This document shows positions 4,566 to 63,330 of a stretch of DNA of 64,000 nucleotides, in pieces. Under the pieces are notes generated by a model. It saw only the letters and a program-made list of their open reading frames with translations, was not told the DNA's origin and did not search any database. Where the stretch lies: assembly GCA_022478985.1 (NCBI GenBank), contig JAKSZP010009265.1, forward strand, positions 170,766 to 234,765, given 5' to 3'. Within the stretch, counting starts at the first letter, position 1; each line of letters opens with the position of its first letter. Both the position numbers and the translations under genes were made by a program. This DNA comes from Massospora cicadina (Eukaryota > Entomophthoromycota > Entomophthoromycetes > Entomophthorales > Entomophthoraceae).

Positions 4566-5330
4566 TAAATTAATTGGCCAACTGCTTTCTTTTACGTGCA
4601 TGAACTTTTTTCTTCGTGGGACTTTCACAAAGTGTAAATGGTGTGCGCCAGCTGTGGGCGTTGGCTGTGTTCAGTCGCACCACTGTTTCCTCTTTTCCCC
4701 AAAGGTTGGAGCATTTCAGCATTAATTTAGCTGTCTCTTATTGGAAAGTACTCACACTTCTTGCTCATACCTGGTGGATATGGATGCTTCGCGGTCCAGA
4801 AGTCATGATTCACCAACTTTGCATTAAATTAATGAAAAATTGATTTCAATAAGTGGGGTTTACTTCAGCAGCAGGTTCAGACAATGTAGGCGGAATCTTC
4901 AAAATGGGCCTGGGGGTGATGGCCTTGGATAATGTTGGGCAATCCATTGCTGTAATGGCATCAGGGTCATTCACAACTAAAACCACATTCTATAAAGAAA
5001 ATAAATATACCTACAAACCATATTTACTATTCTATGGCTCATATATGGAACCTACTACTGTGTATCAAGTTACCCCAAAGAACCCCTGTTTGACCTATTC
5101 CATGATCCTCAGCACTCAGTAGGTTGAAAAAGAACTACATTTACAATATGAAAATGTTTATGCCCCTGCTGAAGATATGATAGGATATGGGGCCTCAGTA
5201 GTAAGAGTGGCTAAATATACCTCTCCATTCTTTGATTTAAAAAATACCAGGGTGACATGTTAATGCCAGATAAAGAGTTTTTTGGTGAAGTACTGCGTTT
5301 TCTGTTTTAAATAAAGAACATTCGGGTTAT
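4566..5330 (+). pseudogene. G1 gag-like leader region, degenerate
   Basis: The region between the 5' LTR and protease holds broken frames (4853-5122 and onward). The stretch around 5155-5260 reads YAPAEDMIGYGASVVRVAKY in frame, and G2 has the equivalent YVTAEDMLVYVASVVRVIKY at about 30210-30270. A conserved segment upstream of the protease in two copies suggests a gag-pol coding region, but I do not recognise a capsid or zinc knuckle. Confidence 0.45.
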
Positions 5331-23855: not shown

Positions 23856-23927
23856 CACTCTTAAGCGGAATCGAACCACTGACCTTCCCTTACTAGGGGG
23901 ACGCTCTGCCATCTGAGCCAAAGAGGC
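23856..23927 (-). tRNA. tRNA-Thr(AGT)-like gene, probably decayed
   Basis: 72 nt on the minus strand. D-arm GCTC...GAGC, anticodon loop CTAGTAA (anticodon AGT, threonine), T-arm AGTGG-TTCGATT-CCGCT and a good B box are present. The acceptor stem does not pair cleanly in register: CTCTT on the 5' side can pair AAGAG on the 3' side only if one base is bulged. The anticodon stem has one C-A mismatch. No T-run terminator directly follows. Either a tRNA pseudogene or a copy with an indel in the acceptor arm. Confidence 0.6.
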
Positions 23928-24610
23928 TTGCACCTTTTATTCTAGGTGCTTACACTTTAAAAATTCTACCTTTATTCAAGTGTTGATTTGGCCATATTAA
24001 AAGAAAACAATAAAAAGAAAGAGTCGCTTTTGAAAGTATACATTTCTGATTTGATTCTCTAAGAAATTTTACTGAAAACAATGATAGAAAAAATGTAAAA
24101 ATATATACCATTTTTGAAAATATATAGGGCTGATTTTTTCTGTTTTGAAGGCTTATATCATGTTGAAATTTATATCTACTAAAAAGAATGCATAAAAACA
24201 ATACTGTCAGCATAGTAGTATTTTCACAAAAAATATTAGTTATAATTAGATGCTAAGGCTTAGTGGTATGTCTATGCTTTTAATTTTCATTGATTCCATT
24301 AAATGTCCCGATCATATTTTATTCCAGCATTAATGTCATATAATATACAGCTAAAACTAATTAGTAACTCTTGTTTTGTTACTTGCAGCTAAGATGATAT
24401 AACTTGAATCTTATTTAGTGCCTCAATACAAAAATCCCTAAGAATTTTTTTACTTTTTATAAGGCTTGAACATCAGTTATGAAAAAATACATTATCATAC
24501 GCTATTCTTTTACACTGATTTAATTTTATAAAAATCATACACTAGCTACTGTCTAAAATTAAAGCAACAATGAACTAGGTATCAAAACAGAAAGAGGAAT
24601 GTACTCTCAT

Positions 24611-24621
24611 TAGTACTAAAA
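24611..24621 (+). repeat. Micro-insertion of LINE-A tail, 11 bp
   Basis: tagtactaaaa lies between two perfect 13-bp direct repeats aatgtactctcat (24598-24610 and 24622-24634). The insert equals the last bases of LINE-A (ctagtactaaaa). It is the shortest of five such insertions. Confidence 0.6.
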
Positions 24622-26170
24622 AATGTACTCTCATAAATTATAAATTCAACATAGCTTAACACTTACAACGTCATGCTTTCCTTGTTAAATTTTAAACAAA
24701 AACAACAAACCAGTAATAAAAAGTTTAAAATTATTTTGTATGATTTATATAATATTATTTAAGCCTTTTTTTCATATATGTAGTCAGTTTTTATTAAAAT
24801 TTTTTTTAACTACACTAGTTTATAAGTGTTTATAAGCTTTGAAATATGCAGGCAGTACATTTCTCAGTATCAGCATCCACTTCATCTAGCAAATTTTCAA
24901 ATTGATCACAGTGCAATTTTAACTTTTAAAGCACAATAGCAACCATATAGTTCATAATCATCATTATAATATTTTTCATGCCTTTAATATGCATTTATAA
25001 AAAAGATAAAGCTACTATAAATCTTAGATAATTTTGTGCTTCCTATATTAAGAATTAGATATTATGCTGTTAGGAACTATAGTGTTAGAACTATGAAAAT
25101 AATTTATAGTGAACTTATTCAAAAAATACTTAGATAATTAATGAAAAGTGGATATCATGGTGTGAGATGTGAGTCCAATTAATTTAAAACATTGATTTCT
25201 TACTAGACTTTGATAATTTTTCTCCAATTATAGCATACTTTTGAATTCATTTTTATTAATAAGAGACAGCATATAATTTTTTATACTATTTATACATATA
25301 AGCATGTACCTTAATTCCCCAAATTATGCTAACTTAAGTTAGATTATATGTATAAAGTATTTTATATTGAAAAAATAGTTTTTGGTAAAAGTAATTTTTA
25401 TTACATAATAGCCATATTATATCGAGGAATAGGTATTATAGATACTTAAATTATAATTACAAATTACTCAATTAATATAAAAAATGATTTAAGTACAAAA
25501 GTAGTGATACACTGCTCATATTATATTTTATAAAGTTTTAGTCCAGGCAAAGTATTTGCTAACTATTATATATATGCTAAGCATCAATTGTCCATATATT
25601 AAATGATATATAATATATGGACTTATCTATTTAAAGTTCTAGTAATTTTTTTTGGATGTATGCACTTTACATTAAAATACTTTTCATTATTCAGATACAG
25701 TTTAGTATCTTTAGTGTTAATATAAGATTTATCTGTGTAATCTACCATGACTAGTATAACTGTATACCCATTATTGCTAAGATTAGATTAACCTTAAAAT
25801 TCTGCACCTAAAACAAGCACTTTTTATATTGATATATTTGTTGTTCTATATTATCATTACTAATTAAGAAAAATGAAAAAAAGAAGATGATATAGTATTA
25901 GCAGCATAAGCTTTATAAAACTGAAAATTTTATAATTTATGACTATGTTTTGATATATAATAATATTAAGTCTTAGATACTTAACCATAAGCTAAATATC
26001 AGTAAATCATTTTTAGATAAATAATTGTGTAGTATGTGTATATGGTTAATAAATCCAGTTTTAGATTCACTAATCTGTGTTGAAGCCACAGCATGATTTG
26101 ACATTCCATATATAATTAATCTTAAACTAGTTAGTAAGATTCTTTTTATAAATAAGTGTGGTTCTGTATA

Positions 26171-26460
26171 CCCTTTTAAATTTTATCTGAGGTGGGCCAA
26201 CCTGGGGATGACACTGCATTGATTAAGGAGAAGCCAAGAAATGAAGATAAGGATAAAACCCAGAAAACCTCCATGCATGGTATATGATAGGCCAGGAACT
26301 CCATGAACTGCCTTGCTATTTGCTATCTCAGTTCAGAGCATTGGCGCACAATGCCAACACAGTCATAATCATCCCCTACTCCAAAGTTCATCTTCCAGGT
26401 TTGAACTCTGAAAGGCATTGGTAAAGTGTATATACTCTATCACCTGGGGTATCCTACCCA
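26171..26460 (-). repeat. SINE1 copy b
   Basis: Minus-strand full-length SINE1. The A-box region is in taccccaggtgatagagtat and the B box in agagttcaaacc. The 3' tail is tgtcatccccaggttggccc plus acctcagataaaattt. The flanks tgtggttctgtata (26157-26170) and tatggttctggtata (26461-26475) are a slightly diverged target duplication. Confidence 0.85.
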
Positions 26461-26475
26461 TATGGTTCTGGTATA

Positions 26476-28140
26476 AAGTTCACTAAATTATACTAACACT
26501 AGTATATTATAAGTTGATTGTAGCATTGTGCTAAGTTTTATCAATACTAACTTTTATAATTTTTAGATTATCAAAAAGGTGTTTTAGGTTAAATAGTTTA
26601 AAAAAATAATGTAATGCATTGTTTTAAGTATTAAGCAAATCCAGGTATTTTTTTAAATATTAAGGCTAAACTTTTCTGAATTTTTTTGATCCTTCCTTTT
26701 ATATGCTTCTTTAATTTTTAAATTGCCGTTTACTAGTATAAACAAAGTTTAACTGATTTGATCTTTATGTTTTAAAACTAAACCTTTTTATAGCATAATA
26801 AATATATTATAATCCCCTTATATATTTATAGCTAGATTATCAGATTATGTCTGTCAGAGTTTGAGATAAGGAACAAATCAAACTCCCCATGCCATAGCTG
26901 ATAGTTAGTAAATTAGACTATAATTGACCAATCTTGAATCCCTAATTCTATGGCAAAATTCAATAAAGAGAAAACAATTTGGAAGAATCACATGACGTTA
27001 ATCAGCCAGAGCATCTCAAAGATTAAGTCAAAAGTAGACTAAGCAACTTCCATAAATAGATACAGAAGACCTAGAATAATGAGCATCTAGTACAAAAAAG
27101 ACCTAGAATAATGAGGTTACAATGCTTTTGATGGCATAGAATAACAAAGACCTTTTCTTGGCTCTCAATACAGAATGATTAGGAATATGCTATATAGGCA
27201 GAGACTGGAATAATATTTTTGTTATATGGTATGTTATAATTAATTTAAACAACCATCAGCTTATATTTTTATGCAACTTTATATTAAACTTATCTTTATA
27301 TAAAGAATTTGATTTGATCATAGTAATTAGTATGGCGCATGACCCATGTTTTTATATAAAGTTGGTCACATAATAATTTTCTATTGCTCAAATCCCTAAT
27401 TTCCACTAACACATTTCTCATTACCTTACATTAGAAACCACTGATGCTGGGCTTTGGTCACTTAATCACCTCCTATTTTAATTTACCACAAATATGCTAT
27501 TTTGCCACACTCAGCATAAAATATCATTAATAAGGTCTCTTAAAATATTTTGTGGCCAGCCACTGGTAATCTGACTAACCTGGCATATCTTAACCACAAC
27601 TGGCATATTGATCTTAGTTTGGAAATGCTCTAAGCCCTATTTAATCATTTTTATGGCCTAATTTGGATTAAGCCAGTAGTTTACCAATCTTAAGTGATGC
27701 TTAGTAACCAAAAAAGCTCCAATGAGAATGTGGGTCATAAGAGCGTATCTGGTTAAGTTAAGATATGTAAGGAAGTCCTTTATAAGTAGATAGTTTTTAG
27801 TCTGCTAAGTTTAGTATAGTGAGCCACAGAGTCAATGGGAAGTATTAAATACTACAGTGTACTCTAATTTTTATCAATAAAAACCCATTCCTAAAAACTA
27901 AGGTTTCATATAATGATCATTTTTACCCATATTGCTGTCCTCAAACAATAACTGGTTTGGGTAGTTATTTGGACTCGTGCATCTGAAATATGACGCCTAA
28001 GCGCCAACTTCAACAGGCTACCTATGCACCATATATTTATGATAACTCTAACTTTGTAAACTATTTTTAAATTCTATACATATTATTACTGCATAATTTT
28101 AGTATATTATCTTGTTAAGTTTAGAACATAGCAGATCAGA
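26476..28140. other. A+T-rich stretch, no gene seen
   Basis: No frame, tRNA box or LTR recognised, except the micro-insertion at 27084. Confidence 0.5.
27084..27097 (+). repeat. Micro-insertion of LINE-A tail, 14 bp
   Basis: catctagtacaaaa sits between perfect 18-bp repeats aagacctagaataatgag (27066-27083 and 27098-27115). The insert is the LINE-A 3' end with one base missing (ctagtac-aaaa). Confidence 0.75.
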
Positions 28141-28848: not shown

Positions 28849-30400
28849 TTAGATGACCAAGCATAAGTTTGGTCTTTCCAAAACTTATTCCAAGTAAAAG
28901 TCTTCATAGTAGTATCTAGGTGATTAAATTGTGCACCATGCTTGGGATGCTCTTGTCCATGGTGGTCTCATTCTTGTTGGCATTGTGATATCTAGGCGTT
29001 TCTCTTTTTCTTCTTCATGTGGCATTACTTCCACCCTTTTGCCAAGTACATGGTGGGTATGGACTGTTCAAAGCTTAGTTGCTTAGGCCTCCAAGTTTTC
29101 CACCACCTCTTCTCATTATAATAAAACTAGCACTGACTCCCCTCCTCCAGGAGTTGAAGGCTGCATCAGCTTCTACCTGGGACCCTGCATGGGTGTTTTA
29201 CATTTATAAAGCTGTGTTGTGGGTGTTTGAGAGTATAGAGAGTGTGAAGAGACCATTGGTAGCAGGGAAACCTTGTGCTACAGCTTTCAAACGTTCCTGT
29301 AGGTTACTTGTGCACTGGGGTGTTGGGTGTCTTGTGTTCCCTGATTTTTATAATCTCCCTGTGTCTCAGGCTTACCTGTGTCCAACGTTTTACAAATAGC
29401 ATTTTTCTGTGCCACTGTGGATGCCCATGTGATGGACACTTGAGTAAGTCAAGCATTTCCCACTAGCTTCAATCATCTGATTAAAGATTTTGAGACAATT
29501 TCCCCACACCAACCCAAAAGGGATCAGGTAATTTGTTCATCATTGTTTTACCCCTGGCAGCCCTATATATACAGGCTCCAAAAACTTGCACATGCCTCTG
29601 AAAAAGAAGAAATTTTAATATTCCATTCCTTTTTTTAGCAGAATTTGAAGGTGAGCAGGGGTCCAGCCTTAAAGTTAAATTAAATGTCTTGGTATATTTT
29701 ACCATGATGATATTACCTGCTGCTGCTCCTATAAATATGGCATCCAAAACTTAAGATTTTCCCCCTTGAATGGGACAGAGCTCCCCACCATTCTCTCCCT
29801 GTTTTGGTGGAATTGGAGAGTCCAGGTAAGTCTAGCCCCACAATTTATATAAGCAATTTAACTAAAATGAATTTCTCTCTGTACCACATTTGGATGGTGT
29901 AGACAGGATCATTTTTTTTAGTACTAGATGGTGTGTAGACAGGATCATCAATGAAGGACCTGGGGGTAATGGCCTTATATAAAAATGTACACACAGCCAC
30001 AAAATTGGGTATAGGGATGTTCACACCCATAAAACATGTTTTATAATGCAAGTTATATACAAAAACAAGTCATTTATTAAATCTTTCAGCTTTAAGGTGA
30101 AACTCATTTTGTGTATCAGATTACCTCAGAAAACCCGCGCTTGACCCCTACCATGATCTGCAGAACACAGGAGGTGGAGAAAAAGTTAATATTAATATAT
30201 GGAAATGTTTATGTAACTGCTGAAGATATGTTAGTATATGTGGCCTCAGTAGTGAGAGTGATCAAATATCCCTCTCCATTTTTTGATACAAAAACCTATC
30301 CTGGAGGCATGCTTATGCCTGATGAAGATTTTTCTAGTGAAGTGTTGTCATTGTCTTCTATGAATAAAAGATTATTATGGATATTTTGTTGACTGTTACA
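28849..30400 (+). pseudogene. G2 gag-like leader region
   Basis: Frames 29079-29399 and 30111-30392 are open. The latter contains YVTAEDMLVYVASVVRVIKY and SPFFDTKTYPGGMLMPDEDF, conserved with G1 just upstream of its protease. A capsid or zinc knuckle is not recognisable. A micro-insertion of LINE-A tail lies inside at 29913-29932. Confidence 0.45.
29913..29932 (-). repeat. Micro-insertion of LINE-A tail, 20 bp
   Basis: On the minus strand accatctagtactaaaaaaa, flanked by perfect 16-bp repeats gtgtagacaggatcat (29897-29912 and 29933-29948). It lies inside G2, so it is younger than G2. Confidence 0.85.
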
Positions 30401-35470: not shown

Positions 35471-37229
35471 TTGATATATAATAATTATACATATATTATA
35501 TAATATAGATTTATAACATATTGTATATGATATATTTTTTAGTACTAGATGGTCCCAACCTGATTGTATATGATATATTTAATACTATATATAATATTAA
35601 ATACATAAATTAATATATACAGTGTGTATACAATATATACATATACAACATGTGTATATATTATATAAATATATATTAAATATTATAAGTATATATAATC
35701 ATAATATATCATATAAATGTATATAGATTGTATGTATAATTGTATGTAAATGCACACATCTTGCTTTTTTCAGTTGTATATGAATAAAAAATTTTTGAAG
35801 TAATTATTGGCAAAAAGTTGTTTTTTACTTTTTAGTGCAACTTTTTTATTTTATTTTATTTTTTGTTTTTTTAATTTATATTGTTTACATTTTATTTTTT
35901 AACTTTTTATTATTTTCTCTCTTTAAGAGAAGCAAGTTTAAAAAAAGTATTTTTTATTTTGCTTTTTTTGTCATATTTTAATTAAATTATTATTATACAT
36001 TGCATAAGTAAAATAGTAGGTTAATTTTTATTTTCAAAGAAAATATTATATATTGAAATTTTTAATATGCTTATAGTTAATATTAAACATATTTTTACAA
36101 AGTTTTACCAAGCAGAGTAATCAAATAGCGGTAAAGTTTGATTATCGAAAAATACGAAATGTATGTTAACAAAAATTTTCTTGTCACTTATGGTACATCT
36201 TTTGTTTCAGTTGATAAATTAGTTGATTTGGCCAATTGGCTGGTGTTTTTGGTTGATCGATAAGCTCATTTGGGGTCTAGCTGAATGTTTGGTGGTATAT
36301 TATTTGGTTTGATACATTTATTTTTTCAATTTAGGATTGATTTGATAAAATTGACTACTTCTTAAACTGTGTAGCCATCTACCATTATAAAAGCTAACAA
36401 TAAGCCGAAGCAAAAGCTTGGGAAACGTTTTTGAACTTTTAAATTAACTACAAACTAAAACCACCAACACTATCAAAACCAATTAACTTACCAAATCAAC
36501 CAATCACTAACCACTTACTAAAACTATCAAGTCTGATGAAGCCCATTGGCAAGCGCTTAAGACCAATCTTCCAGCTCCAATACCATATTAGAATTACTCA
36601 GGTTTATTCACTAACTGCTCTATTTATACTGTTGCTTCCTTCCCCGCTCTGGGGTATTGTGTTTGGCATTTTTGACATTTCAATTTCTCTTCCCTAGTCG
36701 CTTTCTCTCAGAGATATGAACCAGCTCAATGAACTTGGTTTTGTGTAGGTCTAGCCCTTTCTAGCATCCAATCTAACATAGATTTTGATGGGTTATTTGC
36801 TCCTACTGTGATTCATTCTCCCTCCCCCAAGAGGTGACATAGGCGGAATCATCCCCAAATTGATGATAACCAATAAAATAATAAAAATCATAAAAACATA
36901 TTGTTTTTTCTTATGCGTTTTTTTATAGTTTTTTTCCCATATTTTTATCAATCTTTTATTTTTTTCTTCAGTTCCATGGTACTTAACCTTTTTTCAGTTC
37001 AGCGGCCCATCTTTTTATTTTATTCCTCCAAACTAGATCCTAGGTATACTTAGACCTACCAGTTTTCTATGGTTCAGAGGTCTTACTTTTCTAAGACTTA
37101 ACCATCTAGTTTGGTTCAGTAATCCTTTTTTTGGACTTAACTAAATCAACAGGACATAACCAACTTAATGATTCAGCAACCTTCAGGAACTCTTTTTTTA
37201 TTATTATTTTTAGTCAATCCATTGCTTTT
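35471..37229. other. TA-rich low-complexity sequence, no gene seen
   Basis: 35455-35760 is dominated by TA and ATAT runs, and 35800-36100 by T-rich sequence. The remainder shows no frames or boxes of note. Contains the micro-insertion at 35538. Confidence 0.55.
35538..35562 (-). repeat. Micro-insertion of LINE-A tail, 25 bp
   Basis: On the minus strand the insert reads caggttgggaccatctag then tactaaa, 23 of 25 bases matching the LINE-A end at about 50862-50884. It is bounded by perfect 18-bp repeats attgtatatgatatattt (35520-35537 and 35563-35580). The longest and most diagnostic of the five. Confidence 0.9.
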
Positions 37230-39183: not shown

Positions 39184-39199
39184 AATACTTACTATGAAC

Positions 39200-40209: not shown

Positions 40210-40229
40210 TTGCTTTGAGAATAGTAATT

Positions 40230-40508
40230 TAATTTTTATTTGAGGTGGGCTGACCTGGGATGATACCACACCAATTAGGGAAGTGAAGAAAATGGGAAAG
40301 GAGGATAAAACCTGGAAAACCTCCATGAACGGCGTATGATAGGCCAGGAACTCCATGGACCGCCTTTGCTATTCGCTATCTCAGTTTGGGGCATTGGTGC
40401 ACAAAACCAACACAGTCAAAATCGTCCCCTACCCAAAGTCCATTACTGGGATCAAACTCGGGAGGCAGTGGTAGAGGGTCCATACTCTACCACTGGGGTA
40501 TCCTCCCT
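40230..40508 (-). repeat. SINE1 copy c, inside G4
   Basis: 279 bp, minus strand, flanked by 20-bp repeats ttgctttgagaatagtaatt (40210-40229) and ttgctttgagaacagtaatt (40509-40528), one mismatch. The 5' head is ggataccccagtggtagagt and the B box gagtttgatccc. The 3' tail is atcatcccaggtcagccc plus acctcaaataaaaatt. Because the duplication lies within G4, the SINE arrived after G4. This copy gives the cleanest SINE1 boundaries. Confidence 0.92.
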
Positions 40509-40529
40509 TTGCTTTGAGAACAGTAATTG

Positions 40530-43666: not shown

Positions 43667-43780
43667 AACACAGAAGACATCAGAAAAACAATTCTCTTTC
43701 TGCTAAGCATCACTTTTCGAAAATCAATTCAGCCTGAAATTTAGCTCCACTAAAGAGATTTACGAAAACTATTAGCAAAT

Positions 43781-46700
43781 ATGGCGGGAAACCCCGCAAA
43801 AGAACCCGCAGGCTATGCCAAACGAGCCAGCACCACCCCCAAACGAAGCAACCCTCGGTTACCCACCTCAGGGTCAACCAGAATCACCCGCTCTCAAGCA
43901 GCAGCCATGAAAGCAGGCACCACCCCCCAACCTGGAGCTACTCCAACTAGCGCCAGTTCACCTGATCGCACTTCTGCAACCTGCACGCCTAACAGCTCTG
44001 TGTGCGCTGCCTCCCACCAACCTGCTGGGCCCCTCCAACCAAGGAGGCCATCACCCACGCTGTTTTAATGGCGTCTGCTCATTTGAATGCAACTCAGCCC
44101 ATCCAGACATTCACCTCCCCCATTGTGTCAGCTAATTCAGCCCCATCTATTATTGCTGACGCCGTGTTTCTGGCTCCCTCCATGAGGGGCGATACCCAGC
44201 TACCTGGCCCCCAAATCCTCAGATGTAAGGTTGGATTAGCCGCACATTCTGGTTCACTAAGCACCAAATTGGGACAATCTACTCTTCCCAATGAGGATTC
44301 AAATGGTTCTGATTTTGGAACTTCACACCAGTTCCAAACTCACCCGTCCCATTTAAACCCCATAATCGGCACTTCTCAAGTCGGCACTTTATCTCAATAT
44401 GCTGAAAACGACCAATTCACCAATCAGCCAATGAGTTTTGCCCACGAAATCACAGCAAATACTCGGGCTGAATTTACCCAAATAGATTGGGATGGTGATG
44501 AAACATCGCCCTCCTCCCAATTGGCTGGAGTTAATTCCAATCTGGATGGGACTCCCCAATTTAGCGAGGACCAACAATCACCTGGCCCCCAAACCCTCGG
44601 ATGTAAGGTTGGATTAGCCGCACATTCTGGTTCACTAAGCACCAAATTGGGACAATCTACTCTTCTCAATGGGGATTTAAATGGTTCAGATTTTGGAACT
44701 TCACACCAGTTCCAATCTCACCCATCCCATTTAAACCCCATAATCGGCACTTCTCAAGTCGGCACTTTATCTCAATACGCTGAAAATGCTAATTTACCAA
44801 TCAGCCAATGAGTTTTGCCCACGAAATCACAGCAAATACTCGGGCTGAATTTACCCAAATAGATTGGGATGGTGATGAAACATCGCCCTCCTCCCAATTG
44901 GCTGGAGTTAATTCCAATCTGGATGGGACTCCCCAATTTAGTGAGGCCCAACAATCACCTGGCCCCCAAACCCTCAGATGTAAGGTTGGATTAGCCGCAC
45001 ATTCTGGTTCACTAAGCACCAAATTGGGACAATCTACTCTTCTCAATGGGGATTTAAATGGTTCAGATTTTGGAACTTCACACCAGTTCCAATCTCACCC
45101 ATCCCATTTAAACCCCATAATCGGCACTTCTCAAGTCGGCACTTTATCTCAATACGCTGAAAATGCTAATTTACCAATCAGCCAATGAGTTTTGCCCACG
45201 AAATCACAGCAAATACTCGGGCTGAATTTACCCAAATAGATTGGGATGGTGATGAAACATCGCCCTCCTCCCAATTGGCTGGAGTTAATTCCAATCTGGA
45301 TGGGACTCCCCAATTTAGTGAGGCCCAACAATCACCTGGCCCCCAAACCCTCAGATGTAAGGTTGGATTAGCCGCACATTATGGTTCACTAAGCACCAAA
45401 TTGGGACAATCTACTCTTCTCAATGGGGATTTAAATGGTTCAGATTTTGGAACTTCACACCAGTTTCAATCTCACCCGTCCCATTTAAACCCCATAATCG
45501 GCACTTCTCAAGTCAGCACTTTATCTCAATATGCTGAAAACGACCAATTCACCAATCAGCCAGTGAGTTTTGCCCACGAAATCACAGCAAATACTCGGGC
45601 TGAATTTACCCAAATAGATTGGGATGGTAATGAACATCTCCCTCCTCCCAACTGGCTGGAGCTAATTCCAATCTGGATGGGCCTCCCCAATTTAGCGAGG
45701 CCCAACAAACCGCCCCTCAATTTAATATGACGCCAGCAACTGCTGTAACATTCCAGAAACAAGGGAACTCTGCAAACTTGTCCAAACCACCAGCTCACAC
45801 TCAACCTGCAATTGCAGCCCAAAGCAAACACAAACGTACCAAAGGAGCCACTGGGGCGTGGCAAAACCTCTGGCACCAACGCTACCCAAAGCTGATCCGC
45901 GTGAAGTGGCGTTTATTGCTGATGTTAAGAAGAAATGGGCCGAAACTAGAGCGCAAAAAGCTCTACCTCGCTCAACCCTCTCCCACGCAATTCGCCTTTA
46001 TTATGGGCATAACCCTGTTGAATTCTATACAGAGGATTACTTCTCATACTTTGCAGCGATTGCGGAGACATTCCCAATTAACACCACCATCCATGAATCA
46101 GTGGAGGGCCACTACATCGATGTGGGCTTTACTGAAGCTGCCCTTGCTGACCATGCTGCCACCCTCCAGGTCATTATTCCACGCGGATCTCTTCGCATCT
46201 CCCGCACACGCTCTCACCTGGAGAAAATTTCATGGGTTACTTTTTCCAACCTACCAACGACTGTTGATCCTGAGTCTCTTAAACTGGCACTCCATCGTGG
46301 TTTAATGGAGTTTGGGTCTGTTCTTTCAGTGGACTTTAGCGTCCCCTCTTACTATGCTCCCACTCAAAGAGCTCGCACTGCTAGGGCGTCGTTCATCCCC
46401 TCCCCCACTGTATCCCGCAACATTGAGGTTATTCCTCGTGTGGCGGTAGTTGGGGCATGCCCTGAGATCTTTTTGTCGACCCTGATCAGGCGCGCCCCCG
46501 GTGTTCATGGTGCAACGCCCTTGGACACTTGTATAGTGGCTGCACAGCTCGAAAACAAGCCCTCTTAGCCACCACCCAGGGGCCTAAACCAGGCCAAAAA
46601 CGATCCCACGTGGCTGCAGCAGCAATTCCACAACCCACACAATGGGTTCCCGTTCAAGACCTGTCCCCTGAGGCCTTACGCCTAGCAGTTGAAACAGCTA

Positions 46701-47254
46701 ACCCCACAATTGGTATGGGATACCTTCGCGCTCATGCCCCCCTTCCAATGAGCACCCCCTCCAATCTCCCAGAGTCAACTCCCTCTCTCACCAAGCGCAA
46801 GGCATCTCCCACAGGGTGCCCCTCGTCAGCCACCCCCACACAGGGCTCCGCGGCACCCCCACCAACCTCCACCAGCGATTTATCGCATCAACCCTCAGCT
46901 CCCAATGGAGCTATGCCCACCAGCATGGACTGGCAACTCGCGGCCTGCGGTAGAAGTGCCACCTCAAAGAGTCCTACCCCAACCCCACAGTCCATTTCGC
47001 GCGGATCCTTTGCAGTGTTGGAGGAAGTGAATATGGACTCAGACTCATCAAATGGGGACACCGCGGAGGTCACCATTGAGCACCCTCAGGTCCTTCCCCT
47101 GCAACGGAGTGGGGGCAGCATCCTAGGCTGGCTTACTGGGTCCTCCACCCCCCACCCTCTCCTTCCCCTCAGAACCCTCGACGCTCCTCACGGATTGCAG
47201 CTAATAGTCAAGCTAAAGGACTCAAAACTAGCCGCCTCACAGCAGCAGGTTTAA
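43781..47254 (+). pseudogene. LINE-A ORF1: repeat-bearing N-terminus, RRM-like core, CCHC knuckle
   Basis: Starts 98 bp inside the element (MAGNPAKEPAGYAKRASTTP), with a basic, Ser/Pro-rich N-terminus (STRITRSQAAAMK). Frames follow one another: 43781-44068, 44002-44811, 44808-45188, 45185-45730, 45858-46568 and 46529-47254. The core at 45858-46440 has GHYIDVGFTEAALADHAATL and KISWVTFSNLPTTVDPESL (RRM-like). The knuckle CSWCNALGHLYSGC lies at 46502-46543, in another frame from the core. The switch falls in the T-run at 46470-46474, so a one-base indel there is likely. A Pro/Ser-rich C-terminus reaches 47254. ORF1 products bind the LINE RNA. Confidence 0.75.
44197..45690 (+). repeat. Tandem repeat of 377/378 bp within LINE-A ORF1
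   Basis: Nearly identical units start at 44431, 44808 and 45185, with partial units before (from about 44197) and after (45563-45690). Unit sizes are 377, 377 and 378 bp. The 378-bp phase encodes a 126-residue repeat (MSFAHEITANTRAEFTQIDW...). In the units ending at 44807 and 45184 one base is missing in aatgctaatttacc, compared with aacgaccaattcacc elsewhere. The frame then ends at TGA overlapping the next ATG (ATGA). Confidence 0.92.
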
Positions 47255-47297
47255 GCGCTGGCAACCCCCCAGGACATGGAGGGGAACAGCTATGAGT

Positions 47298-48150
47298 CCC
47301 CATGGCAGCACCCTGGCCCTGCAATCCATCAACGCAAATGGGTTGCGGGACTTTAAGCGGAGAGCCCGCCTCCTCTGAAACTTCAGGTCAGCACAAATTG
47401 ACATCACTGCTGTCCAGGAGCCCCATATCCTCCCCCACGAACAATCTGCATGGAATGAACAGTTTGGAGGCAACTCCTTCTGGACAAACTATGCCGCCCT
47501 TATTGTTTTGAATCCCCGGGTTAAAACCCATTCTTTTTCACAATATCTAGGTGGCCGCCTCATACTGGCCAAACTCACCACTCCTGACTTCTCCTTCTTC
47601 GCTGCAAGCATCTAAATGCATAATGCAGGTCAGGAGCAAAATCAGCTCTTGGAAGAGCTCCTCCAACTCAATCTCCCACGGAATACAGTCCTCTTAGGAG
47701 ATTTCAACACAACCATAAGTCGCGTCCATGACTCTTACCCCCTGCAGCAAAGGAACGCCCTGGATCAAGTCGCCTCCAGGATTTTCTTCGCCTGAGTGGC
47801 TTTATAGATGCGCTTCCACCCTCCGCGTCTGGCCTAGGTTGCATGACTAGGATCCAGTATGATGGAGGAGCTTTCCAGTCAGCGTCACGCATAGATATGG
47901 CACTGATTGGCCCCCTGCTAATTGGCCGCGTCTCCTCTCCCATCTCTCATGACAACCATCTTAGTGATCACAGGTCACTCATCGTTGTCCTCACCACCAC
48001 GCTTAGACCGTCGCGTAGGTTCTGGCCTAGGGTTGCCCCAGCTCTTCTCAACAACCCCTCCACTAAGGAGAAGCTGTCTATGACCATCCGGGAGACTCTC
48101 ACCTCCCCCCACCCCACCTGCTTGACCACAAGGCTAACTGGGCGGTGACC
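47298..48150 (+). pseudogene. LINE-A ORF2, endonuclease domain
   Basis: Reads LALQSINANGLRDFKRRARL and then QIDITAVQEPHILPHEQS (catalytic glutamate in QEPH, about 47413). FILLGDFN equivalent LLGDFNTTIS follows at about 47690-47718, and LSDHRSLIVVL (47960-47990) holds the D-H pair at the end of the fold. All key exonuclease III-type residues are visible. Breaks: TGA at about 47377 where CGA is expected, a TAA near 47612, and a shift near 47760-47800. The endonuclease nicks target DNA to prime reverse transcription. It starts about 45 bp after the ORF1 stop. Confidence 0.8.
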
Positions 48151-48194
48151 AAGGAGGCATCACCCGCATTGCTTACAACTGTGCCAAAGCCCAG

Positions 48195-49672
48195 ATGACT
48201 GCAGCTCGCGCCAGAGTCAAAAGGGCGGAAGCCAGAATCAGACATCTAGAGCGAAACTGCCAGCCTTCGCCCTCTCCCAGATGGTTGGAAGACTGGGAAG
48301 TGGCGCAGGAAGCACTCCGCTTGGAGCTCACACTGCAGGAAGAACGGGCAGCAAACTTTACAACATCTCGTTACTATGCTCAATGGGAATGCCCCACCCA
48401 CTTCTTCTTTCAGAAACAGAAAGCCCGGTCAACAGCGCAGGATATTACTGCACTGAAGATTGGCACTATAACCACTTCAGATAAGGAGGAAATCACGCAG
48501 GAACTACACCGCTTCTACTCCAGCCTCTTCCATGCCACCCAGGTGGACCCATCGGACATCCAAGACTTCCTGTGGCGGGCTCCAGAGCCGCCCATTGACC
48601 CACGGGCTGATGAGGCTCTACTGGCGCCTATTTCCATCCAGGAGGTGACGGAAACCCTTCTGAAATCCCCACGGCTTAAAGCCCCAGGCCCAGACGGAAT
48701 ACCCTTTGAGGTGTACCTTCTGGAACCTGCAGTGATAGCCAGAACCCTCCGCGACCTCTTCGCTGCACTCTTGGTGAATGGCGAGGTCCTCCCCGACTCC
48801 AGAGGCTCAATCACGACCCTCATTCACAAGAAGTCAGACCGTGAGAACCTGGCGAACTGGCGCCCCATAGCGTTGATCAACACAGACCACAAGCTCTTCA
48901 CGAAGCTTCTGGCCAACCGCATCACCAAATGGGTGTCACCTCGCCTCTCCCCATCCCAGTACGGTTTTATTCCGGGGAGGTCGTTATGGGACAACTATAA
49001 TGACCTTCACGTGACTTTGACTGCTAACTCTCATAAGGTGAATGGCTTTGTGGCTCTCCTGGATATGGAGAAAGCATATGATCGGGTAGCCTGGAAGTAT
49101 ATTGATGCTTCCCTGGCCCGCTTCCATCTCCCAACCGCAGCTAGGCGCTGGATATCAGCGCTCTATGACCAGCTCCACACCAGAGTCCTGGCGCCAATGG
49201 GCTTTACAGTGGCAGTACCAGTTGGACAAGGTCTCCGGCAAGGGGACCCCTGAGCCCTATCCTTTTTAACATCACCCTTGACCCCCTCTTGGCCTCCTTA
49301 CAGGACAAGCTAACAGGGATTCTGGTCCCAGGTAAAGCCCTCACACGCACCATGGCATTTGCAGATGACACTGCCATTGCATTTGGCTGCCCTGGGGATG
49401 TTGCCCTCGCTGCTGTGACCATTGAGAGGTACACCAAGGCGTCCAACGCCATGGTCAACACCTCCAAGACAACAGTTGTACAGGTCGGCTCCCCCACTTT
49501 CCCCCCACCATTTGGTATTGAACCTGAGCGCGGTACCTTCCGTCACATGGGCGTTCTCACCAACCAACAAGGAGTTGCGCTAAAAGACAATGAGGACTTT
49601 CTCCTTGCAGCAGTTAACTCCAGGATTGCCAGCTGGAACCGGCGGCACATCACCCTCAGGGTCGAGCTCTAA
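48195..49672 (+). pseudogene. LINE-A ORF2, reverse transcriptase
   Basis: Frame 48195-49253 (352 codons) covers a coiled N-terminal linker (RARVKRAEARIRHLERNC), PGPDGIPFEVY, NWRPIALINTDHKLFTKLLA, QYGFIPGRSLWDNYNDL, GFVALLDMEKAYDRVAW (first catalytic aspartate) and VPVGQGLRQGDP. It then hits TGA at 49252, because the C-run in gacccctgagcc is one base short. The next frame (49289-49672) continues directly with AFADDTAIAFG, the catalytic FADD box at about 49356-49385. A single-base loss therefore separates two otherwise well-kept halves. Confidence 0.88.
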
Positions 49673-50841
49673 TGGCCAATGTGTTCCTCCTCTCCAAAGT
49701 CTGGTTCCTAGCGCACGTCTGCCCATTCACAGATGCCTTTTATACGCGGCTCAATGTACTCCTCCGCTGTTGGATCTGGGGCTCAAACCATCCACCAATG
49801 GCCCTCTCAACCATTGCCCGACCCTGCAATGAAGGGGGCCTAGGGCTTCTGGACACGCGATCCCACGCCACCACAATCTTCCTGAAGTTCCTATGGCCGA
49901 TTGTCTGCTGGGACGCGACCCCCATGCCCCAATGGGCGCCCGCCCTCCGCCAGTCAGTGTCAGCAGCTCTGGGTCTTCCTAGAGCATCTCTGACCTCATT
50001 AGGGGAGTGGCTCACAAACCACCCAGGCCATCGCCTAAAACCATCCTCATCCCCCTACTGGAACCAGGCTCTCCTTGCCCTGAAACGAGTAGGCGCGCGG
50101 ATCCAACATGCCTTCCCATACAGAAGGGAAGGCCCTGGCCTCAGCCCACGTCGCCATGCAATTGTGCACAATGGACAAGTTGTCACAACTCGCCTCAACC
50201 CCCAAGATCGTCCTCCCATCTGCCCAAGACTCCTTGAGCTCCTCCCTCCCTCCGTGAGATTTGACCTTAAGGAATTGTGGAAGGACGTCTATCACCCCAT
50301 CCTGTCAGCAAAGGTGTCCAACACCTTATGGAGGGTGCTCCACTGTTTATACAGGACAGGGGACCAGACTGGCCCTACCTTCTAGCACCGAAGCTGCCCC
50401 CGCTGTGTGGAGCCTATTGACTCCCACCTCCATCATTTTTTCACCTGTCCAGGTGTCGCCGCATTTTGGCCAAAGGCCCGCGCGCTCCTCCATGCTCAGC
50501 CCTGGTCTGGACACCCTGTGCAAGACCTCATGTTTGAGCAGACATTGCCTGGTTGCCACCGACCCCTCCGTGTCCTCGCCTATGCCACAGCCATCTGGAC
50601 CATCCATAACTCCTTCCTTCGTGCTGCCTTTGACCAGCAGGTGTGGACCCTTTCACACATGATCACCCACTTTCAGGTACACTTTGAGATGGCCCTGAAG
50701 GTCTGCACTATGTCGCCAACCCTCCCCCGCTCAGTTGTCACTGCAGAACGGCTCTGGAGCGCAAACCCCCTCCCTTTCTCGATGCCTCCTCCCTCCCTTC
50801 CCTCGCCTCAGGCTCTTAGGAGCCCAGGCGTAATTCAATAA
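49672..50841 (+). pseudogene. LINE-A ORF2, thumb and C-terminal zinc region
   Basis: Frame 49672-50385 encodes MANVFLLSKVWFLAHVCPF, LNVLLRCWIWGSN, CNEGGLGLLDTRSHATTIFL and NTLWRVLHCLYRTGD. It ends at TAG (50383), where a coding triplet is expected just before the CxxC. The next frame (50407-50841) has the CVEPIDSHLHHFFTC zinc motif and AYATAIWTIHNSFLRAA, and runs to the end of the coding region. No RNase H domain. Confidence 0.82.
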
Positions 50842-50887
50842 GCATCGATGAATCCCCCTTGGGTTGGGACCATCTAGTACTAAAAAA
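50842..50887 (+). other. LINE-A 3' end (tail A)
   Basis: The terminal segment reads catcgatgaatccccc, then ttgggttgggaccatctag, then tactaaaaaaa. Pieces of its last 11-25 bases occur alone, each between target duplications, at 24611, 27084, 29913, 35538 and 59293. A diverged form ends the element at 60158-60745. This is presumably the part recognised by the LINE-A reverse transcriptase. Confidence 0.8.
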
Positions 50888-50903
50888 AACACAGAAGACA
50901 TCA

Positions 50904-54385: not shown

Positions 54386-54405
54386 TCTTGTTTTTTATTA
54401 ATAAA

Positions 54406-54695
54406 TTTAAATTTTATTTGAGGTGAGCTGATCTGAGGATGATTTCACACTGATGAAGGATGAAGGGGATTCAAATTAATGGGAAAGGAGGATAAAACCT
54501 TGAAAACCTCCATGCGTGGCATATGATAGGCCAGATACTCCATGGACTGTCTTGCTATTTTCTATCTCAGTTTATGGCAATGATGCGCAATGCCAACACA
54601 GTCATAGTCATCCCCTACCCAAAGTTTCTGTACCAGAATCAAACTTAGGAGGCAGTGGTAGAGGGTCCATATTCTGCCACTGGGGTATCCTCCCT
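54406..54695 (-). repeat. SINE1 copy d
   Basis: Minus-strand full-length copy. Flanks tcttgttttttattaataaa (54386-54405) and tcttgtttcttattggtaaa (54696-54715) are a diverged 20-bp duplication. The head ggataccccagtggcagaat, B box aagtttgattc and tail ctcacctcaaataaaattt are present. The B box has a substitution relative to copy c. Confidence 0.85.
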
Positions 54696-54715
54696 TCTTG
54701 TTTCTTATTGGTAAA

Positions 54716-55126: not shown

Positions 55127-57060
55127 ATACTTTTATTCAACTGAGGCAAGCTGACCAGGGGACAGACAATACCAAAACTGAAACTCCAAAATCAAACTGA
55201 CTAAAAATTAAACATGAATTGACTGCCCTTTTTTAGGAAGTGAGACACAAAAAGAAATGATAAAATTACTTACCAGGTGGTATAGCGGTGAGCCACTTAT
55301 CCCATCATGGTGGAGGGGGAGGGGGGATTGGGCGGGTCATCTTCAGGCTCAGCATTGTAGAGGCGGATCAATGCTGAGAGTAGGGGGGTTGGAGCATCCG
55401 TGGGATGAGGGTCAAGGTGGAGTAGGTAGTTGTTGAGATCGATTATTTGGGCTTGGATTAGAGCCTCTGTGAGTTCAGCAATGTGGTGTTCAGTCTAGAT
55501 GCAAGCATCAAGAAGTTGTTCAAGTTTTTCAGTTTTTATTCTTGTGGTACATGTGGATGGAAAAAATATACCAATTCAGAAACATGCTTGATGGCGATAG
55601 TGGCAGTTTTATGGAGGCGTTAGATTTCCTCTTTTGTGTTGGGAGGAAAATTGGAGGGGAACAAGGGGGTGTGCAGCCCATTTTTGAAGTCCATGACCAA
55701 TTTTGTACATAGTATGTGAGTACAGGGAATATTGGGATTGGCCACCGCAGCTGCAGCAAGCTGGTGGTCACTTTGGAAAAAAACACCAGGTTTGCAGACA
55801 TATCAGTTGTTTGTGGCTGGGGTATCAAAGTCTGAATTCAGGTAAGGTGCTAAATCAATTTGAATAGCTCAGTGGTGGGACAATTTCACCCAATTCAGTT
55901 ACTTCTTTCAATAATTTTTAGGGATTTAGATTGATTTGGGAGGATATGCGGGTAGGTGATTTTGATTTGGTAGTTTTTGGGACGGGTGATTTCTGGATTA
56001 AACAATGGCCCAATCCTGCACTCAATTGGCTTCAATGGGTGTGCATTGGCCAGCTTGGGTTTGAGGTGCTAGATTTTGCTTCTGATTCAAGTGCATGGCC
56101 TGTGGGGTTGGGGGCAGCCAAAATCCCCACTCAAAGGCTGTTGGTGTGGCCTCATTGGTGGTGTTGTCCATGTTTGCAGGGTGTGAATTACAATGACATA
56201 CCTTTTTGGTGTGGTCCAATTCATAGCAGAGGTGGCAAATTGTGTGATAGTTATTAGTGCAGGCCCAAAAGAAATGGTCAGGTGTGGATGGGATATAGGC
56301 ATGCGATGGGATGTGCTGGCTTATGTTCATCTGGTTGGGGGTAAAAGTGGCCAATGCCTGAGGTGCTGCGAGGCATTCAGCACCGCTTGGGACAACAAAT
56401 TGGAGGATAGGGTTTTCACCTTAAGTGGACAACCCCAACATCGACTCATCATATAGTTTTTTTGGGGGGGAAGCTGTGAGGGGAGGTTTGCAAAGGTTAA
56501 TACAAGTGTGGTATCCTCTGGGAGGCGTGTTTGGGTGGTGGTAATGGGGGTATTTTTATAAATTAATTGTATATCTGCTGCAGCGGCTGCATCCTCTTCA
56601 GTGGGGAATCCAATATCAAAATAGCCCTTGTATGGGTGAAATTTAATAAACCCTTCTGGTGCAAAAGTGGCTGTTGCCAGCTCAATTATCACTTTGTCAG
56701 CATATGGGAATAGATGTCTGTACTTAACGCAGAGGCAAAATCAAATATTGGATCAGGGTAGGGCTAGGGGGTGGGGCAGGTTGGGTGGGCTTGTGTGAGG
56801 TGGAATGCTAAGTCCTTTGGGGGGACATAATGACCAGAAGTATTTGGCAGACTGGACAAGCTAGTCCACACATGTTTGCCTGCTGGGTGGTAAACGCTAG
56901 TGGGTGGAGCACCGCTGCCCCATACTGGGGCAGCTGGTGGTGGATCTGAGGACATAAATTTGGAGATTGGTGCAGTGGGGCAGTGGTGGAAAATTGACTC
57001 ATTTTCCAAAATTGCTCAAAATTGATGTTGAGCGGAAAGAAAAGTTTTCATAGTGCATAT
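55127..57060 (-). mobile_element. HAL-type element 2: ORF1-only LINE derivative
   Basis: Minus-strand copy of about 1.93 kb. The 5' end (near 57045) has ctttccgctcaacatcaa, like ctttaaccgctcaaagtc of element 4. The coding region runs from 57009 down to about 55300. The 3' UTR ends gtctgtcccctggtcagc plus ttgcctcagttgaataaaa at about 55170-55130 (tail B). I could not pair a clear target duplication; the right edge is uncertain by some tens of bases. Confidence 0.75.
55300..57009 (-). pseudogene. ORF1-like protein of HAL-type element 2
   Basis: Frames from 57009: HHQLPQYGAAVLHP / PPAAPVWGSGAPPTSVYHPA, HYVPPKDLAFHLTQAHPTCP. Then 56692-56327: TATFAPEGFIKFHPYKGYF, DIGFPTEEDAAAAADIQLIY, LVLTFANLPSQLPPQ. 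Then 56354-56022: PSTPDHFFWACTNNYHT and a complete CCHC knuckle CHLCYELDHTKKVC. Farther on come FFQSDHQLAAAAVANPN and a C-terminal HPTDAPTPLLSAL...PSPSTMMG. The frame shifts at least four times. The histidine lost in element 1 is kept here. Confidence 0.68.
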
Positions 57061-59275: not shown

Positions 59276-59292
59276 AATGTTGTATGCCTATA

Positions 59293-59310
59293 CCATCTAG
59301 TACTAAAAAA
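59293..59310 (+). repeat. Micro-insertion of LINE-A tail, 18 bp
   Basis: ccatctagtactaaaaaa between perfect 17-bp repeats aatgttgtatgcctata (59276-59292 and 59311-59327). The insert is an exact match to the LINE-A end. Confidence 0.9.
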
Positions 59311-59493
59311 AATGTTGTATGCCTATAAATAGTAAACTATTTTGGTGTCAGTTATACACTTGTAAGCTTAGTTATCTACTTAAAGTTAAAAAATTAGTGG
59401 TAGCAGGAACCACTCCTCTAACCAACCACCCTATTTTTCTATTTCTAAATCTTATATCTTCATCTAAATGAAAATAATGATAATAGGGGAGTT

Positions 59494-59695: not shown

Positions 59696-59778
59696 GGCAA
59701 CTTGGCCGAGTGGTCTAAGGCGCTGCGTTCAGGTCGCAGTCTACAATGTAGGCGGAGGTTCGAACCCTCCAGTTGTCA
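59696..59778 (+). tRNA. tRNA-Leu(CAG)
   Basis: 83-nt tRNA with a complete cloverleaf. Acceptor GGCAACT pairs AGTTGTC, discriminator A at 59778. The D-arm begins GCCGAG; anticodon stem CTGCG/CGCAG encloses loop TTCAGGT (anticodon CAG, reading CUG as leucine). The variable arm is long, as in type II tRNAs. The T-arm is GGAGG-TTCGAAC-CCTCC. A T5 terminator follows at 59780-59784. No intron. It decodes leucine in cytoplasmic translation and looks functional, unlike nearly everything else in the window. Confidence 0.96.
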
Positions 59779-59807: not shown

Positions 59808-60078
59808 AAAATTTAAAATTTAAAATTTTATTCGAGGTGGGCCGAATTGGGACGGTACTGCACCGTTCAGGGGAATCGAAGATTTGGGAAAGGAGATAAA
59901 ACACGGAAAACCTCCATGCGCAGCGTATGATAGGCCAGGAACTCCATGGACACCTTTACTATTCACTATCTCAGTTCAGGGCATTGGTGGACAATACCAA
60001 CACAGTCATAATCATCCCTACCCAAAGTTCATCTACCTGGATCGAACTTGGGGAGGCAGTGGTAGTGAGTATTCTGAA
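59808..60078 (-). repeat. SINE1 copy e, 5'-truncated, next to tRNA-Leu
   Basis: Minus-strand copy beginning about 30 bp after the tRNA-Leu terminator. The tail taccgtcccaattcggccc plus acctcgaataaaatttt and the body tggagttcctggcctatcat are clear. The 5' head is lost beyond gaggcagtggtag (about 60066), so the A box is missing. Flanks tatttctagaaaa and tattctgaaaaa may be the target duplication. Confidence 0.75.
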
Positions 60079-61440: not shown

Positions 61441-63330
61441 TTGAGAGTTCTTTAACCGCTCAAAGTCACTTTTGAGTGATTTTAAATTTAAGTTTATTTA
61501 TCCACAGCCATCTGCCCAAACCTATTCTTTGATGTCCTTGGCTCTGCCGCCTGCCACCCCAGTGTGGGGCAGCAGTGCACCCCCATCTAGCGTTTTCCGC
61601 CCTGGAGGCAAGTGTGTTTGGATGAGCTCAAACAGCCCGCCCACTACTTCCAACCATTTTGTCCTCCCACGGGACTTAACGCTCCACCTGGCGCGCGTCC
61701 ACCCTTCTCACCCCCATCCTCTCGCCCTCCCTCGCTCTGCTATTTGCTATTGCCTCAGAGTGGACTATGGGCGTTTGTTCCCATATGCCAATAAGGCAAT
61801 TATTGACCTAGCCACTACAGCCTTTGCGCCAGCTGGCTTTATAGACTTCCGCCCTTTTAAGGGCTACTTTGACGTTGGGTTCCAATCTGAGGAGGATGCT
61901 GAAGCGGCAGCATAAACTCCTCTAATTTATAAAAAAACCCATTCCCACAACCCGTACTCGCCTCCCTTCAGACACCACGCTAGTGGTATCCTTTGCAAAT
62001 CTCCCATCCCACCTTCCACCCCAGGTTTTGTATGACCAGTTGGTCGCGGGGCTCATGGCTTATGGCACTCAGCCCAACCTCATCTTTGCCATTCCATCTG
62101 GTGCGGAACGCCTTGCTGCTCCTTGTGCAACAGCCACCATCATACCACAGCACCCTACCATAGCCCAACAAATCCCACCCCGCGCTAGGGTGGCTGCAGC
62201 GCCTGATCATTTCTTTTGGGCTCAGGTTGATAATGGTAGGCAGATTTGTTCTCTCTGCTTTGGCCTCAACCATGCAAAAAGAGTGTGCCCAAAGGCCAAA
62301 TCCGCTGCTGCGGCTTCTGAGCCCCCTCTGGAGGTTCAGTATGGGGTGCTTTGCTGCCCCCTCCCACCCTCCAATCTCGTTCAGTGGGCCCACATGGAAA
62401 ATAAGCCCCCCCAAAACCTCCATCCTCACTCTCCCACCTAAATCTACACCAGCCAATCAGAGCAATGCTTGGACCACCATTAGCACCCAAGCAGCTGCCC
62501 ATTCGCCCAATCCTACCCACTCAAATCTAAACGCCACTATTCCAGTGAACCAAAATCCATGGGATATATTGGCTGAAACTGACGAATCAGGTAATGTCCT
62601 CATTAGTAAGCATACAGGTCAACCTTTCTGCCATGGCAATTATGGTCAGGCAGAATTTTTCCTTCCCAACTTTGATGAAACCCCTACCCCTCGCCATTTT
62701 GCTCCTCTACCCAATACAGCCCCCTTCCAAAGTGACCACCAGCTCGCCTTAGCTGCGGTGGCCTCTCCTCATTGCCCAAAACTATGCACCGTGGTGGCCC
62801 AGTCAGTGGCTCAGCTCCAGCATGGCCTGCCCACCATCTTCTTCCCCCCACTTCCCTGAATCTCCCTGCAGTGACATCTCAAAACTATTCGATGATGCTG
62901 AAATTGCTGTTATGAATGTCACAACGCTTGCTGCATTCAACCCCTCAGCCAAAATCACCTGCCACAGTATCTCCCTTTTCACCCAACTTCCTGAAGCCCG
63001 CAAAGAAGCTGAAGTTCTCCTCGCAGCTTTTGTTGAAACACTTTCCCATCATTATCTTGATGCAGAAGGGAAAACTCCTACTACGCTGACCTCAGCCCCC
63101 ACTATGCAGGTGCCCCAAAGCCCTGGCTCTCTGCTCTGATCTGGTACTGTAACCAACACCCCTTGATCGAGGTGAGTCTTTCTGAAAACCAACCTACCAA
63201 CCCCTTCTCACCCTCTGCCATGGTGGGGTTAAGCAGTTTCTGCTTCCCACCTGGTTAGTAGTTTGTTTTGCCGTTTTGAGTGTTGTGATCATTACTATCC
63301 ATCCCCTGGTTGGCATACCTCGAATAAATC
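61441..63330 (+). mobile_element. HAL-type element 4: ORF1-only LINE derivative, complete
   Basis: 1890 bp between perfect 16-bp repeats tagcaatagagattga (61425-61440 and 63331-63346). It has a short 5' UTR (ttgagagttctttaaccgct), one ORF1-like coding region, and a 3' end tccatcccctggttggc plus atacctcgaataaatc (tail B). No space for endonuclease or RT exists within the duplication, so the RT-less form itself transposed. Best-preserved and best-bounded member of the family. Confidence 0.92.
61472..63232 (+). pseudogene. ORF1-like protein of HAL-type element 4
   Basis: Successive frames 61472-61915, 61983-62441, 62227-62859 and 62822-63139 make up one coding region with about four shifts. In order: LPPATPVWGSSAPPSSVFRP, NHFVLPRDLTLHLARVHPSH (a conserved H...H segment), AFAPAGFIDFRPFKGYFDVG, VSFANLPSHLPPQVLYDQLV, a CCHC knuckle CSLCFGLNHAKRVC (about 62249-62290), NPWDILAETDESGN (about 62552-62593), and a C-terminal APKPWLSALIW...PFSPSAMVG ending TAA at about 63231. 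FDVGF/SFANLP/GLMAYG align with LINE-A ORF1, giving an RNA-binding ORF1 relative. Cellular role unknown. Such a protein could help package its own RNA for a LINE reverse transcriptase. Confidence 0.72.

Follow-up and report, generated by a model that had tools for sequence, protein, structure and literature searches.

The non-LTR retrotransposon LINE-A appears to have left thousands of insertions of only about 10–50 letters in the genome of Massospora cicadina, against a few thousand long copies. Five of these micro-insertions lie in the 64-kb stretch of DNA analysed here (the window), together with LINE-A itself. We consider it likely that they are products of LINE-A target-primed reverse transcription which mostly aborts within a predicted 3' stem-loop and is then joined to the target in the normal way. 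Truncation of LINEs and even tail-only insertions are already known, and what appears to be new here is that the short pieces, or stubs, form the majority of the sample and that the length spectrum has two states. A search of the literature on short and abortive LINE insertions, covering few of the subscription journals, returned no description of stubs as the main LINE product or of a two-state spectrum. LINE expansion in M. cicadina has been described as distinctive among the species compared (PMC11105155), and the origin of LINE truncation was called unclear in a LINE paper of 2009 (PMC2666801).

LINE-A and its isolated tails in the window

LINE-A is recognized as a 7.2-kb insertion because it is flanked by 16-bp duplications (Table 1). 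Profile matches identify its reverse transcriptase as LINE-type with broken frames: two RVT_1 (PF00078) matches at 48138-49250 and 49169-49669 lie in two frames (E 2.7e-19 and 5.3e-09), and a frame-broken piece at 47616-47792 gives a weak match to the endonuclease profile PF03372 (E 0.0061, 16.8 bits vs a cut-off of 24.5). For the C-terminal piece at 49618-50382 the protein database contains two relatives, each from M. cicadina: P0121 (96% identity over 76% of the query) and P0122 (92% over 49%). A protein search with ORF1 returned zero hits. Long terminal repeats are absent from the element, since self-comparison at E 1e-3 yielded solely an internal 377-bp tandem array. This array occupies 44202-45708 in the 5' part of LINE-A and holds four copies with 97% matches. 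At its 3' end the element is A-tailed, with six A ahead of the duplication, and a scan of viral and prokaryote collections gave no match to the tail. Judged by its letters, an 8-bp palindrome in the tail (TAGTACTA, 50875-50882) that extends into the A-run might permit tail-tail pairing.

Table 1. LINE-A, its micro-insertions and one empty target, with coordinates in the window
Feature	Coordinates	Strand	Description
LINE-A, 7,205-bp non-LTR retrotransposon	43683..50887	+	within Ty3/Gypsy-like sequence; frames interrupted
LINE-A left target-site duplication, 16 bp	43667..43682	+	exact match to 50888-50903
LINE-A right target-site duplication, 16 bp	50888..50903	+	exact match to 43667-43682
LINE-A 3' UTR	50842..50887	+	46 nt past the stop codon; source of micro-insert sequence (sequence, anatomy)
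Predicted terminal stem-loop (GAUG...CAUC)	50847..50874	+	holds most micro-insert ends; from folds, weak
Micro-insertion 1	24598..24634	+	13-bp repeats 24598-24610 and 24622-24634; insert 24611-24621 (11 bp)
Micro-insertion 2	27066..27115	+	18-bp repeats; insert 27084-27097 (14 bp)
Micro-insertion 3	29897..29948	-	16-bp repeats; insert 29913-29932 (20 bp)
Micro-insertion 4	35520..35580	-	18-bp repeats; insert 35538-35562 (25 bp)
Micro-insertion 5	59276..59327	+	17-bp repeats; insert 59293-59310 (18 bp)
Gypsy-like paralogue in which the target of micro-insertion 3 is empty	4843..5029	+	about 61% identical

The first-pass annotation had claimed that the LINE-A 3' terminus occurs alone at 24611, 27084, 29913, 35538 and 59293, in both orientations, and that each copy sits precisely between direct repeats of 13-18 bp, the size class of LINE-A's own duplication. 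All of this was confirmed at the five sites, where every repeat pair is exact, as is the 16-bp duplication of LINE-A. Its description of the inserts as the last bases of LINE-A holds for all five tails and needs amendment at two of them, because the insert at 27084 is without one tail T and that at 35538 begins with two extra 5' bases foreign to LINE-A.

The association of tails with repeats also emerged when the window was scanned blind to the motif. The scan took exact repeats of at least 13 bp with a gap of at least 4 and a spacing of at most 80, and excluded low-complexity pairs (3 of 10, all in an AT-rich stretch near 35.05 kb). The window yielded seven pairs, where 200 dinucleotide shuffles in 500-base blocks averaged 0.195, and four pairs of at least 16 bp, where the shuffles averaged 0.005; LINE-A tails are enclosed by five of the seven and by all four. 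Tail-like sites with at most three mismatches number 25 in the window (10.8 expected from shuffling). Their flanking-repeat scores are 13-18 at the five named sites and at most 8 at another 19, and the parent element scores 5, its repeats being 7 kb apart. Scores of 13 or more were reached by 15 of 3,000 random positions. When 350 dispersed 10-mers were tested, flanking repeats of at least 13 bp turned up at one or more sites of 12, and each of these sites coincided with a LINE-A micro-insert. A chance origin of the flanked tails is rejected by the shuffles, the random positions and the dispersed 10-mers.

Abundance and length spectrum across the assembly

The assembly analysed comprises 1,469,884,898 bases (1.47 Gb) in 16,968 contigs, the published genome size being 1.488 Gb (PMC9584336). 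The tail 14-mer ATCTAGTACTAAAA occurs in it 35,980 times as an exact copy, or once per 41 kb, vs 35 times for the reversed control. As a genome sample we took all 73 matches of CTAGTACTAAAA that have GAATCC, a right anchor chosen arbitrarily, no more than 10 bases further on (the reversed pattern gave 3). With a fixed detector, 56 of the 73 sites proved to be inserts of 11-51 bp between target duplications with a mode of 16 bp, and the identical detector reached its cut-off at 2 of 438 random A-runs from the same loci. The expected genome-wide excess of duplications over control motifs was therefore found in the sample, alongside a roughly 1,000-fold excess of the tail over the reversed word. 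A second anchor, CAGTTG, gave 94 matches vs 29 for the reversed pattern; four of its loci were fetched, which represent three distinct places, and duplications were visible by eye at all three.

Seven of the 73 sampled sites are long copies. At 93.7-97.6% identity to LINE-A they extend for 1.36-2.0 kb, as far as the retrieved DNA reaches, and have their 5' ends beyond it; one of them (L055) is without some 56 bases close to the 3' end. The other ten sites fell below the duplication cut-off. Their LINE-A alignments are at most 42 nt long, several show imperfect duplications by eye, the tail has diverged in two (L059 and L072), and another two (L035 and L049) are the same sequence sampled twice. 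In none of the 66 loci that are not long does the tail alignment exceed 47 nt (BLAST vs LINE-A, E at most 1e-3, 1.5 kb upstream). At L069 it covers 18 nt, and a distinct LINE piece of 65% identity lies far upstream. A motif-blind search of the sampled loci (282,980 bases) for exact repeats of at least 14 bp off the central site found 13 pairs; six enclose LINE-A tails and seven enclose other sequence, two of these seven being one overlapping tandem repeat. At L076 and L077 (~1466-1534), which are one place, the micro-insert with its duplication is itself tandemly repeated as a 34-bp unit, and micro-insertions might thus seed minisatellites.

In the sample, the distribution of lengths is split into two states. 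At 0 of the 73 sites does the LINE-A sequence break off at a length between 52 bp and 1.36 kb (upper 95% bound 4.9%). Across the assembly, exact-word counts fall from 35,980 for tails of at least 10 nt to 19,101 for at least 16 nt and 5,662 for at least ~37 nt. Exact LINE-A markers placed further from the 3' end give 2,950 at 0.28 kb, 2,813 at 1.4 kb, 2,141 at ~3.2 kb and 1,973 at ~7.1 kb, near the 5' end. Because such counts conflate truncation with mutation, which lowers them, the real decay along long copies is probably less than these figures indicate. A graded truncation of the L1 kind, with lengths continuous from stub to full element, is not what is seen, as intermediates number 0 of 73 and the markers are near-flat from 0.28 to 1.4 kb. 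If each of the 66 short sites among the 73 is counted as a stop, the stop rate is about 5% per nt across the first 43 nt; between 0.28 and 7.1 kb the apparent loss amounts to about 0.006% per nt, a rate lower by roughly 900-fold. Among the first 100 tail sites listed (contigs C1-C6), 8 have a long-copy marker and 12 have a tail of at least ~37 nt with no such marker. Among 90 listed copies bearing the 0.28-kb marker (C1-C166), 79 also carry the 1.4-kb marker in register and 58 the 3.2-kb marker; 85 carry one or other of these and 5 carry neither. We estimate some 33,000 stubs (35,980 x 0.92) vs about 3,000 long copies.

The first-pass annotation had proposed to check its reading at orthologous empty sites in related strains or alleles; uninterrupted sites that lack the motif exist as paralogues for 11 of the 56 sampled micro-inserts and for the window insert at 29913. 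In the former, a query with the flanks joined at one target copy aligns without interruption to paralogous sequence among the DNA retrieved, the best hits having 61.9-96.0% identity. The joined query of 29913 matches 4843-5029 at 49.7 bits across the junction, and the filled query at 46.8 bits over the right flank only; over a wider stretch the two score alike (filled 191, joined 190). What these paralogous empty sites show is how a repeat family looked before insertion, as distinct from an empty allele. A word search of the assembly for an exact 27-mer of the empty target of L008 found none, the neighbours at that target differing within the word. By eye, five loci (L008, L012, L029, L042 and L063) hold different inserts at the same position of one repeat family, and L048 and L057 share one further target; since different inserts occupy one target position, sites seem to be reused independently. 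The spread of a single insertion through duplication of its host repeat was rejected, as the sampled duplications are nearly all different, the exceptions being L035/L049 with their identical sequence and L048/L057 with a common target and different inserts. An assembly artefact was likewise rejected, because inserts of various lengths occur in both orientations and uninterrupted paralogues of the sites are present.

Insert anatomy and how the stubs may arise

For the anatomy of the inserts, the 56 sampled and 5 window cases were combined into a set of 61, all found by a detector seeded on tails. Their duplications measure 13-21 bp, with 15-17 bp in 47 and exact copies in 51. The A-run is 7-8 long in 45 of the 61, and since the published M. 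cicadina assembly was built from Nanopore reads and polished with Illumina data (PMC9584336), single A-run lengths are not trusted. The first base of the duplication is A in 57 and the first two are AA in 45, figures that are inflated in part by the ambiguity of the A-run. The non-A part is most often 12-14 nt long (25 inserts), with smaller groups at 18 (6) and at 40-43 nt (4). In duplication size, A-run and TT nick, the full-length LINE-A of the window resembles the micro-inserts. At L073 (~2000), one insertion holds two LINE-A tails with 13-bp repeats on either side, an arrangement such as template jumping would give. The claim of the first-pass annotation that the inserts are LINE insertions made by target-primed reverse transcription is thus, as far as sequence features can tell, well supported, because they comprise the extreme 3' end, stand in the right polarity at the A-tail and have the duplication size and often the TT-type nick in common with LINE-A.

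The insertions may accordingly be pictured as a series of steps. The LINE-A endonuclease would nick the bottom strand, often after TT, and the nicked 3' end would serve as primer where LINE-A RNA ends in its short A-tail. Copying would mostly halt 5-43 nt into the RNA, chiefly inside the predicted terminal stem-loop; the second strand would still be cut about 16 bp off and the stub joined, giving a normal target duplication. At about one insertion in ten, copying would pass ~43 nt and then usually continue over kilobases, in many cases almost to the 5' end. The order of these steps, an abort of the enzyme as the stop, and the stem-loop as its cause are what we infer from the traces. In fold models the predicted GAUG...CAUC hairpin begins about 8 nt and finishes about 37 nt away from the final non-A base, and its stem appears in all seven long copies; most micro-insert ends lie within the hairpin or just past it. 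Over the last 46 nt the fold does not exceed shuffled sequence in stability (z 0.13), and for that reason its part in stopping the enzyme is offered as a hypothesis.

Reverse transcription that aborts has a serious competitor in the copying of short templates, in which the LINE-A machinery would take short 3'-terminal RNA fragments, either decay products or pieces shielded by the enzyme, and copy them to their 5' ends, so that the insert is a complete copy of a tiny template. Such copying would leave a trace nearly identical to that of an abort, and the tight size range agrees with it, as does a common start at one point right after the stop codon in three inserts (L007, L053 and L057; L052 starts one base later). 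The 5' junctions bear on it most directly. They could be scored in 49 inserts (non-A part of at most 24 nt, m2 excluded); 41 are fully templated and 8 carry 1-4 unmatched bases. Microhomology of at least one base is present at 13 of the 41 templated junctions and absent from 28, near chance by a rough expectation, and is thus low as in full-length human L1, whereas it is reported at nearly 80% of 5'-truncated human L1 (PMC2912911). The junctions therefore resemble reading to the end of an RNA and not a stop in mid-template, and this low microhomology, which points to short templates, is the main evidence against an abort; the ten sites of 73 below the cut-off and the 5 of 90 listed long copies lacking upstream markers also count against it. 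On the other hand, the insert starts are spread across 5-43 nt and not confined to one or two processing sites, and 8 of 49 junctions carry extra bases. An abort is favoured because the ends are spread and because an escape step would produce just such an abrupt drop in stopping, from frequent to rare, at around 43 nt, and we hold short templates to be an unlikely, though weighty, source of the stubs.

Two other explanations fare much worse. The very high copy number (35,980 tail words) would suit a minute non-autonomous RNA family, a kind of nano-SINE, that consists of the LINE-A tail only and has its own source gene. A SINE has a constant body and its own promoter, whereas the micro-inserts, with their scattered starts, have no constant body or 5' end; they match the LINE-A 3' end together with its variants CTTGGG, CTCAGG and CTCGGG, which occur in the pieces and in longer tails alike. 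We find such a family very improbable. Still slightly less credible is filler DNA, by which the repair of staggered double-strand breaks would fill them in and use captured LINE-A DNA or cDNA as a patch, with no primed reverse transcription. Fill-in of staggered breaks likewise creates direct repeats, the unmatched bases at 8 of 49 junctions would agree with it, and so would the seven of 13 flank pairs that enclose sequence other than tails. It predicts any part of the element in either polarity, however, and all 61 analysed inserts consist of the 3' end and have their A-run next to the duplication (by the tail-seeded detector), while in the motif-blind scans the tail fills every window pair of at least 16 bp and six of the 13 flank pairs (the seven others apparently hold different sequence).

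Returning to target-primed reverse transcription that aborts, we give even weight to a broader formulation, in which LINE-A reverse transcription passes from abortive initiation through an escape point, as RNA polymerase does at a promoter, about nine in ten completed insertions are stubs that fail at the 3' stem-loop, the rest are processive, and the genome holds some 33,000 mostly young hidden insertions. That the stubs are mostly young is taken from their duplications, which are exact in 51 of the 61. If this formulation is true, cleavage and joining would be uncoupled from the extent of copying.

Known systems and other repeats of the window

RNA polymerases pass through abortive initiation and promoter escape, releasing many short stubs before they copy processively past an escape point. 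The comparison is an analogy only, as the enzyme is a different one, and each LINE-A stub persists as an insertion. Closer to hand, mammalian LINE-1 shares with the micro-inserts 3'-anchored copies, target duplications and target-primed reverse transcription, and the duplications of full-length human L1 peak at 14-16 bp (PMC2912911). Mouse L1 lengths are graded, with about 60% below 400 bp, 26% at 0.4-1 kb, 9% at 1-2 kb, 3% at 2-5.8 kb and 2% longer (PMC11084082), in contrast to the empty interval between 52 bp and 1.36 kb in the LINE-A sample. Poly(A)-only insertions in human disease, like the stubs, show extreme 5' loss with the 3' end alone left. They occupy rows 121-124 of a table numbered to 124, three of them with deletions and no duplication and one with AAGAAA (PMC4859970); thus they are four rows in that table, whereas LINE-A stubs are the majority of the sample and have full-size duplications. 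In stringent-type LINEs, for example those of zebrafish, a protein recognizes the 3' tail RNA (PMC4176376), and LINE-A would share with the type a fairly constant short A-tail and a 3' stem-loop, the latter as predicted by folding.

With very many natural stop points seemingly less than 50 nt from the start and a gap before the long copies, the switch from start to elongation in a LINE may become readable from a genome. Inserts of 20 bp are unlikely to be visible to standard repeat masking, and LINE mutation would then be undercounted.

Other repeats were also seen in the window. Pieces resembling ORF1 of other LINE families lie at 37327-39190, 56197-57041 and 61445-63264, and a Pfam search of the three gave no matches. 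A dispersed family of about 280 bp is present at 23313-23588, 26175-26458, 40210-40529, 54404-54696 and 59817-60070; it has a SINE-like look, with a 5' end that is tRNA-like by eye and a 3' end like CCCAGGTCAGCCCACCTCAAATAAA, and its copy at 40 kb has a 20-bp duplication with one mismatch. The element at 37-39 kb carries CCCCTGGTTGGCTTGCCTCAAATAAA, which resembles the tail of this family, so the two are a possible LINE/SINE partner pair. ARAGORN found a tRNA gene in 0 of the 5 copies. The family might inflate tRNA gene counts in the genome. Rfam tRNA matches were obtained at 23856-23927 (-, 33.1 bits) and at 59696-59778 (+, 53.4 bits), the latter 39 bases from a SINE-like copy.
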